NCBI GenBank assembly: GCA_016748015.1
Contig: JAAOMT010000512.1
Coordinates: 654,719 to 718,718, forward strand
DNA: 64,000 bases
Direction of reading: 5' to 3'
Origin: Geosiphon pyriformis
Taxonomy: Eukaryota > Glomeromycota > Glomeromycetes > Archaeosporales > Geosiphonaceae
The notes beneath the pieces are model-generated. The model was not told where the DNA came from. It ran no database searches and saw only the letters and a list, made by a program, of their open reading frames with translations. How positions within the stretch are numbered: position 1 is the stretch's first letter; each line of letters begins with the position of its first letter. The translations under genes were made by a program, and so were the position numbers. Positions 40,552-43,641 of the stretch are shown here, in pieces.

Positions 40552-42203
40552 CTACCAAACTTTTTTCTTTATTTTTTTAGGGCCATAACCCATCTTTCTC
40601 CACTTTTCCAACCTCTTCTCGTCTTTTTTCGCCTTTTCTAGTTTTCTCACCTGATGTTTACTTAAAACTGGTTCAATGACTGTCGTGAAATGTTTATCAA
40701 TCCCTTCCTTTGTCACATCATCTAAAGTGTACCTTCCGAACTTTCCAAGTCGGTATTGTTTTATAAAAAAATTCGCTCCATGATGTCGATCGAGTAAACC
40801 ACCCTTTTTTAAGGCGCCAATTCGTTTACAAATTGCTGGGAGAAGAACGTTGATATCATCGGTTGGTTCCGACATATCGAATCTTTCCATGTATGCTCTG
40901 TTTATAGGCGTAAAAATTGAGATATGGGAAGAAAGCAGACTTGAGAATGAGTAAATTTGCACATGGATTCTTACTTGAACCGACCAAATGTATTTAGACG
41001 CCATAATAAGTAATCAGCCATGATTTCCACATCTACTGCGTGATCTATTATCCCACCTAAATTAATGAAATTAGAGATTATTTATATAGACCTAAAAATT
41101 TTAAACTGAATGTTAAAATAATAATTCAAACCTGTTAATGCGACTTTTAATGAACTTATAGGGTCATGAATATGTGGAATCATCACACCTAGAAAATGAA
41201 TTAAAAAAATTTAGCACTTCTTTTTACTTTGGCTAAATATAATTGCTAAAAGATTATTGCCTGGGGTATCAATTATATATACAGGTGGGTTTTCGACCAC
41301 CTTTATAGTCTGACTAACAGATCTTGTAATTCCAGGATTGGCTCCAGTTCTAGCAGCTTTCCCTTTTTGGAAAATAAATCATATAAATCATTTAGAATCG
41401 TTATATATATTTAACTGAAACATTCAAGGTTTCTTTACCTTTTCCAACACCTATACTACGCATCGAATTGATTAATGTTGATTTCCCAACATTCGGCATT
41501 CCGAATACCATCACGTTAAAAGATGAGTATTGTATAGGATCTGATCTGGCCTTTTCTGTTCATATATAACCATATGAAAGTGAAAAAATTTTTTGTTAAC
41601 CTACAAAATTCATATTAAAAAAAAAATGAAGCTAAAAAGACCAATAAAGTTCTTACCAGAAGCAACTTTGATGATATTGTGAACATTTCTATCCACATTA
41701 GCGCTCGTGAACATGACTTTTTGATTCGGAAGATATTTTTGAAAAGCATTTATAATATTCTATGTGAGAATATAGATCTAATTTATTAAATTTTCAAATT
41801 TTTGATTGAGAAATTTTATTTCTAGATTTCGAAATTACTTGTTTACAAGCCACATCTGCTAAATCCGCTTTATTATAGACAATAAGCCGATCTTTTGTAG
41901 CGGCAAGCTCTTCAAATTTAATGTTTATCGCTGACAGAGGGATGTGTAAGTCAAAGAAAACAAAAAGTTAAGGGAGCTGAGTTTATAATTTCTCAATATC
42001 AATATTTGATTTTTAAAATTCCCAGTAAAAAATATTCCCTCTTCCAGAAAAAAAAAAAAAAAGGATATCCTTGCATCACGTAACTCAACGATCATATCTA
42101 CCGATAATAATCGCTCTCCAATCACTCTAATTCCTTTCGCCATATGTCCTGGAAACCAATTTATAACTTTGTCATAGCAAAATTGTGGGCGTATTTGGAA
42201 CAT
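40552..42203 (-). CDS. MTG1: Mitochondrial ribosome-assembly GTPase MTG1 (8 exons)
   Basis: Model, reverse strand: exons 42,203-42,069, 41,943-41,839, 41,759-41,657, 41,555-41,439, 41,362-41,261, 41,188-41,132, 41,056-40,975 and 40,897-40,552; 1,047 nt, 348 residues, frame closed. It is a YlqF/MTG1 circularly permuted GTPase: WFPGHMAKG near the N-terminus, G4 NKAD (69-72), G5 TSA (98-100), G1 GMPNVGKS (133-140), G2 Thr in PGITR (166) and G3 DTPG (185-188). The basic C-terminus (KKIKKKVW) fits a late assembly factor of the mitochondrial large subunit at the inner membrane. Length fits the family. All G motifs are intact. Intron 1 is AT-AC with U12-type signals. Intron 5 has a GC donor (CCAG/GCAATA). 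Diverges from the Hsp20 gene across 606 nt. Confidence 0.93.
41944..42068 (-). other. U12-type AT-AC intron in MTG1
   Basis: 125-nt intron between codons 45 (Arg) and 46 (Ile). 5' end ATATCCTTTTT is an exact match to the U12 donor. CCTTAAC at 41,973-41,967 is an exact U12 branch-site core, in the context CTCCCTTAACTTT. 3' end TTACAC. No GT-AG choice keeps the ARIPLSAI reading expected for this family (DARIP is a conserved motif). Phase 0. Confidence 0.85.
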
Positions 42204-42809: not shown

Positions 42810-43641
42810 ATGGGTACAACCAGTGGTGAGACTGATTATAGAGGCGACAATAGTGATGTTCATGGGCGTTTTGGTGGTTATGGTGTCGCTAGTCCTCGCG
42901 GTTTTGACGACAGAAATAATGATATTCGTAGTGTTCGTGTTTATAAGAAGGATTTTGACCATGATTGGGATTCGGATTGGATGCCTGATGTTGATTTGTA
43001 AGTAAATTCGTAATTGGTTTGTGAAAAAGTGGAATGAAATCAATTTTGAACAAATCAAACTCTTGCTCCTTTAGTTACGAGTTGGAAGAAGCTTTTTTTG
43101 TTAACGTTAACCTCCCGGTATGTAATTTTTATTGGGAAAAAATTGAACTCGGAGTCAACTTTTACAATTAATTTTCCTTCTATCCAAAGGGTCTTAAAAA
43201 GGATGAGGTAATCTTTTGAGATTATAACCGAAATGTCATTTTATTTAAACGAATCTAGTCACTAAACTGAAATTTCAAAGATACATATCGACGTGAACAG
43301 TAAAAACGAACTTTTTATTACTGGCACCAGACTATTCCCCAAAAAACTTATATATCTCGATCGTCGAATCACCGAGCGAGAGTATGGAAGTATTCGCCGC
43401 AGGTAGGTTTTAGGGTTTCGTACAATTTATTTTGATAAATCTTGGAAGGTTTTAAATCTTTCTTATTAGGATCGGTTTGCCAACAGATCTGGACCCTGAG
43501 AAAATCAAGGCCAAGTATGAGGAGGGCGTCTTGAATATTGAGATAAGTATACATTGGGTATTATATTAGCAGCTTATGTCACTCCCTCAGTTAATTAAAA
43601 ACGATTTTTCTATTTAGGTACCTAAACAACACAACAAGTGA
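42810..43641 (+). CDS. Small heat-shock protein, Hsp20 family (6 exons)
   Basis: Model: exons 42,810-42,997, 43,075-43,117, 43,190-43,207, 43,281-43,402, 43,470-43,557 and 43,618-43,641; 483 nt, 160 residues. The alpha-crystallin domain runs from about residue 63: YELEEAFFVNVNLPG, GLKKDE, IHIDVNSKNELFITG, then REYGSIRRR, IGLPTDLDPEKIKAKYEEGV and LNIEI, with the canonical GVL. The short C-terminus reads VPKQHNK. The N-terminal 60 residues are Gly/Asp-rich and unrelated to known leaders. ATP-independent chaperone holding unfolded proteins as oligomers, probably cytosolic. Exon 3 is an 18-nt microexon flanked by consensus splice sites. The end of exon 5 is uncertain: a GTATAC donor 11 nt earlier would end the protein at once, whereas the chosen TGG/GTATTA keeps frame. 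Confidence 0.85.

Follow-up and report, generated by a model that had tools for sequence, protein, structure and literature searches.

A probable U12-type AT–AC intron in MTG1 and matches to minor-spliceosome components in an AT-rich, probably fungal genome

The first intron of the gene for the mitochondrial ribosome assembly factor MTG1, located on the minus strand of the analysed window (a stretch of 64,000 nt with a G+C content of 23 percent), is very probably a true U12-type AT–AC intron that is removed by a retained minor spliceosome. The features of the gene and of the intron are listed in Table 1 together with the other candidate minor introns of the same genome. Judged from the sequence, the intron is presumably transcribed and spliced.

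Table 1. Features of MTG1 and its first intron in the window, and candidate minor introns elsewhere in the genome with a domain match across the exon join.
Feature	Position	Strand	Termini	Gap from branch motif to acceptor (nt)	Basis or remark
MTG1, whole gene model, 8 exons, 348 aa	40552..42203	−			phmmer and Pfam matches
MTG1 exon 1, ending ...VELRDAR	42069..42203	−			gene model and phmmer alignment
MTG1 exon 2, starting IPLSAIN...	41839..41943	−			gene model and phmmer alignment
Putative U12-type intron 1, 125 nt, phase 0	41944..42068	−	AT–AC	23	sequence; highest score on human MTG1 among 154 open splice choices
U12-type donor ATATCCTTT	42060..42068	−			9/9 of RTATCCTTT; pairing potential with U11 5' end and U6atac
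Putative U12-type branch site TCCCTTAAC	41967..41975	−			core CCTTAAC exact; predicted pairing with GUAAGG of U12, one bulged A
Second, weaker branch-like 9-mer TTCTTTGAC	41950..41958	−			intron positions 111–119, 6 nt before intron end
Probable acceptor TTACAC	41944..41949	−		23	
Alternative acceptor GAC, in frame	41950..41952	−		17	would insert Leu-His inside DARIP
Alternative acceptor TAC, out of frame	41946..41948	−		21	
XPG/Rad2-like candidate L012			AT–AC	14	domain spans join
ATG9-like candidate L014			AT–AC	11	domain spans join
AKTIP-like candidate L007			AT–AC	23	domain spans join
SMC3-like candidate L013			AT–AC	15	domain spans join
Formin FH3 candidate L015			AT–AC	9	domain spans join
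Prefoldin candidate L022			AT–AC	13	domain spans join
ES2-like candidate L027			AT–AC	8	domain spans join; match gapped
Vezatin-like candidate L030			GT–AG	23	domain spans join
Histone-deacetylase-like candidate L033			GT–AG	25	domain spans join

The phmmer search against PDB chains matched the gene model to mitochondrial ribosome-associated GTPase 1 (entry 7o9k, which we take to be the human protein; E 1.5e-57, residues 8–277 of 348) and to RbgA/YlqF (E 1.6e-40, residues 13–294), the homology to MTG1 covering most of the protein. The MMR_HSR1 domain was found above the Pfam cut-off, and the motif DARIP was present in all four displayed phmmer alignments to MTG1 and RbgA chains. The matches bear out the identification of the gene as MTG1 by the sequence-only reading. 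Introns 2–4, 6 and 7 of the model are GT–AG introns, and intron 5 (41189–41260, minus strand; GCAATAATC...CTAG) is a GC–AG intron with a weak-looking donor. Opposite MTG1, an open frame beginning MGTTSGETDY... starts on the plus strand at 42810 and runs for 63 codons before the first stop; by eye it resembled the start of a small heat-shock protein, but no Pfam family matched its first 55 residues.

The junction of intron 1 is in phase 0 and separates the Arg (AGG) from the Ile (ATC) of DARIP. When read through, the intron contains no in-frame stop, but its length shifts the frame and leads to a stop at codon 93, in exon 2. The enumeration of splice choices covered introns of at least 50 nt with GT–AG, GC–AG, AT–AC, AT–AG and GT–AC termini, and 154 choices left exons 1 and 2 open. 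The AT–AC choice ending in CAC ranked first, with scores of 174 against human MTG1 and 169 against RbgA, followed by the same donor with the GAC acceptor (162 and 157). The sequence-only reading had placed the intron at 42068–41944 of the minus strand, in phase 0 between the Arg and Ile of DARIP, and had stated that no GT–AG option fits; the coordinates and phase proved exact, and the scores agree with the latter statement. The GAC and TAC acceptors and the second branch-like 9-mer of Table 1 were not mentioned in that reading.

Some GT–AG choices do keep the frame open, and a different GT–AG intron or a broken gene, with the U12 motifs matching by chance, could then be considered. The best of these choices reached only 125 against human MTG1 and 122 against RbgA and deletes DARIPLS. 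The full set of RTATCCTTT, CCTTRAC and YAC or YAG at the allowed spacings was found at one place in the window, which is intron 1 of MTG1, and a scan with a looser donor again gave this intron as the sole match. Such a set occurred in one of the 200 windows simulated with a first-order Markov model (mean 0.005), before requiring the right place and frame. A chance match is hardly credible on these grounds. The 8-mer RTATCCTT alone shows no excess over chance, with four occurrences in the window against 5.9 expected.

Searches with Rfam models included the whole genome of 124.7 Mb and 14 control genomes, all prokaryotes. Three of the minor snRNAs exceeded their cut-offs in the genome: U11 (80.9 bits, cut-off 39), U6atac (70.9 bits, cut-off 33) and U12 (55.1 bits, cut-off 53). 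The fourth, U4atac, stayed below its cut-off (43.7 bits, cut-off 53, E 1.7e-4), and for all four the whole model was aligned. None of the 14 control genomes had a match to the U11, U12, U4atac or U6atac models. The U11 RNA starts with UAAAAGGG, U6atac contains AAAGGAGAG, U12 contains GAGUAAGGA, and U4atac carries the Sm-like site AAUUUUUGGAA; these stretches are functional segments of the RNAs and are intact here. The duplex predicted between U4atac and U6atac has an energy of −33.8 kcal/mol.

The genes of U12, U6atac, U11 and U4atac (L001–L003 on the plus and L004 on the minus strand) have in common a TCCCAYAATT-like element upstream. The element, T(C/A)CCA(T/C)AAT(T/G), is located at −65, −67, −68 and −65 of the four genes, with 37 of 40 column agreements, the maximum among 300 simulations being 34. 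Also a TATA-like stretch begins between −26 and −37 upstream of the four genes. The element is thus a candidate for a common snRNA promoter element.

The layout of the intron is ATATCCTTT...TCCCTTAAC–23 nt–CAC, with the donor situated in a T-run, and its AT–AC termini are one of the accepted types of minor introns (AT–AC or GT–AG). As had been claimed, both the donor and the branch core are exact; the full branch 9-mer agrees with TTCCTTAAC at eight of nine positions. For the U11 5' end paired with the donor an energy of −7.7 kcal/mol was predicted, while the values for the six other MTG1 donors ranged from −4.2 to +0.7. With U6atac the corresponding values were −8.3 kcal/mol and from −2.0 to −7.2, the last of these belonging to the donor of intron 5. 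Because of these ranges the contrast is clear for U11 and not for U6atac in the case of intron 5, and the closeness of the two U6atac values was counted against the U12 reading. The duplex of U12 with the branch site was predicted at −6.5 kcal/mol with a single bulged A.

Removal of the AT–AC intron by the major (U2) spliceosome would be compatible with the T-rich stretch preceding the acceptor, and U2-type AT–AC introns exist. The donor and the branch core together form a U12 signature, however, and the predicted pairing of the intron with U11, U6atac and U12 likewise speaks against removal by the major spliceosome, which is very improbable.

Proteins specific to the minor spliceosome were matched as well. 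An exon with the zf-U11-48K domain scored 27.3 bits in the Pfam search of the genome (cut-off 21.1). The domain alone is not specific, since the model also matched an archaeal genome among the 14 controls. When the exon was joined by eye with its neighbouring frames, the sole PDB match was U11/U12-48K (1.7e-11). For 59K, the PDCD7 domain scored 35.6 bits (cut-off 27) and the sole PDB match was PDCD7 (5.5e-5). Two exon pieces of a 65K-type RRM, joined by eye, had RNA-binding protein 40 as their top PDB match (7.9e-19) and RNA-binding protein 41 as the next (9.1e-11). The weakest of the four was the 25K candidate, with the Ubiquitin_4 domain, which we take to be a domain of the 25K protein, at 44.3 bits (cut-off 22.8; positions 50–87 of 89); in the PDB it matched a mouse-named chain weakly (E 0.0054). 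No tandem U12-type donors (USSE enhancer) were seen near the 48K and 65K loci.

Two genome-wide searches with donor–branch patterns found 20 and 8 places, altogether 28 with MTG1 included. The reversed-pattern controls gave 27 and 344 places, respectively, and donor–branch pairs are thus not enriched in bulk; the counts alone show nothing, because the real pattern is not commoner than its reversed control. A repeat family is one guess for the 344 occurrences of the reversed pattern against 8 of the real one. Since there was no bulk enrichment, reliance was placed on the base preceding TATCC and on exon joins spanned by a domain. In the first set a purine (A or G) preceded TATCC in 17 of 20 places (48 percent expected, binomial P 0.0008), and in 13 the base was A (P 0.007); in the second set the figure was 6/8. 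The exact-pattern set (n = 20) included 13 AT donors versus four GT donors.

A domain match spans the exon join over the putative intron in nine of the 27 places other than MTG1. In eight of these nine joins the matched spans are of equal length on both sides, that is, in the protein and in the family or chain, the exception being L027. All seven AT–AC candidates have an exact donor and branch core and are present in conserved genes, while the two GT–AG candidates could be major introns. The acceptors of the nine candidate introns were picked by eye among the open joins. The Pfam test included 10 of the 13 joined loci of the first set and three of the eight of the second, with one join each, also chosen by eye. 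Loci L005, L017 and L020 were rejected for lack of a Pfam domain over the join; in L018 an eIF3K-type domain does span the join, but the acceptor was not credible and the locus was rejected. Left out of the test by eye were L006, L008 and L009, which belong to the 13 joined loci, and L011, L016, L021, L024 and L034, which have open joins; L010, L019, L023, L028, L029 and L031, for which no join was listed, were outside it. These 18 places do not enter the count of supported introns.

Retention of a minor spliceosome in the lineage, as claimed by the sequence-only reading, is supported because snRNAs, protein matches and the nine other domain-joining introns are present in the same genome; splicing itself we infer from these. 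That reading had named a complete lack of minor-spliceosome RNAs and proteins as the outcome that would speak against it, and instead four snRNAs (U4atac below the cut-off) and matches to four proteins were found.

The distance from the branch motif through the final CAC is long, as had been noted. It places the branch site within the range of −40 to −5 used in PMC2846911 and outside 11–13 nt, which the review PMC3584512 gives as an optimum, not a limit, for U12 introns, described there as lacking a distinct pyrimidine tract. The gap, the presence of a nearer in-frame GAC and the T-rich composition of the 23 nt, which lie in a window with 23 percent G+C, were among the points counted against the U12 reading. 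The gap is not alone in its length, since the AKTIP-like AT–AC intron has the same one.

The same U12-type intron might be spliced mainly at the GAC, giving DAR-LH-IPLS; this acceptor is in frame and its gap comes nearer to the optimum. It would add two residues at a site where the aligned MTG1 and RbgA chains have none, it scores lower than CAC (162 against 174 on human MTG1), and GAC is a poor acceptor triplet. Furthermore, the domain-supported AKTIP-like intron has no AC or AG nearer to its branch than the acceptor at 23 nt. Predominant use of GAC is therefore unlikely, and CAC is probably the acceptor of the intron.

Somewhat less likely still is a branch point in TTCTTTGAC with the intron and its acceptor unchanged. 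This 9-mer has one mismatch to TTCCTTRAC, and the duplex predicted between U12 and the stretch past the branch site, which includes TTCTTTGAC, is stronger (−8.0) than that with TCCCTTAAC and was counted against the latter. Also gaps down to 8–9 nt are present among the candidate introns of the genome. On the other hand, the core of TTCTTTGAC is inexact while CCTTAAC is exact, the −8.0 duplex was calculated with the whole U12 5' region and extends beyond the branch-binding letters, and the resulting gap of 6 nt would be shorter than in all nine other candidates. The branch site actually used is thus probably CCTTAAC.

With CCTTAAC as the branch site and CAC as the acceptor, U11 would bind the donor through its 5' end and U12 would pair with CCTTAAC, bulging the branch A. 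U6atac, brought by U4atac, would then take the place of U11 on the donor. Joining of the exons at the CAC downstream would give an intact DARIPLS.

Minor introns have been described from other fungi. For Rhizophagus irregularis, PMC10639083 (2023) reports 205 predicted minor introns, the U11, U12, U4atac and U6atac RNAs and many specific proteins. The genome analysed here resembles it in its four minor snRNAs and specific proteins, and the intron motifs of R. irregularis are, according to the same paper, as in animals and plants. In the early-diverging fungi Rhizopus oryzae and Phycomyces blakesleeanus, the few U12-type introns listed in PMC2846911 (2010) are similar in the RTATCCTTT donor, the TCCTTAAC branch and the AT–AC and GT–AG subtypes; they differ in that MTG1 is not among the genes in the passages on them. 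In comparison to animal and plant U12-type AT–AC introns, as outlined in PMC3584512, the donor, branch and termini are alike, whereas the gap of MTG1 intron 1 is longer and T-rich. A search of the texts of the open-access literature found no report of a U12-type intron in MTG1; it gave PMC10639083 as the only report found on minor introns of Rhizophagus or Glomeromycotina, and nothing relevant on those of Mucoromycota. The inference that the minor spliceosome survives in such fungi is correct and not new, because the minor introns and snRNAs of R. irregularis were published in 2023 (PMC10639083).

The model of the type I fatty acid synthase ACP domain (PF18325) had no match in the genome, where a missing match does not equal absence, and matched one control genome under the cut-off. 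We know of no arbuscular mycorrhizal fungus (Glomeromycotina) with a type I fatty acid synthase, and the missing match agrees weakly with the sequence-only reading, which had called the fungus arbuscular mycorrhizal-type.

The analysis contributes a minor intron with good support, situated in the gene of a mitochondrial ribosome assembly factor. In the genome concerned, which is AT-rich and probably fungal, minor snRNAs have now been placed and four specific proteins matched. It is possible, though this is offered tentatively, that the minor spliceosome of the lineage accepts a gap of 23 nt, as in the MTG1 and AKTIP-like introns, and picks the first good YAC in a functional frame past the T-rich stretch; MTG1 would then perhaps be spliced at two in-frame ACs, and the four snRNAs might be transcribed from the common element 65–68 nt upstream. 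Why the minor spliceosome persists, and which spacing rule picks the AC acceptor, can usefully be studied in lineages that have retained minor introns.
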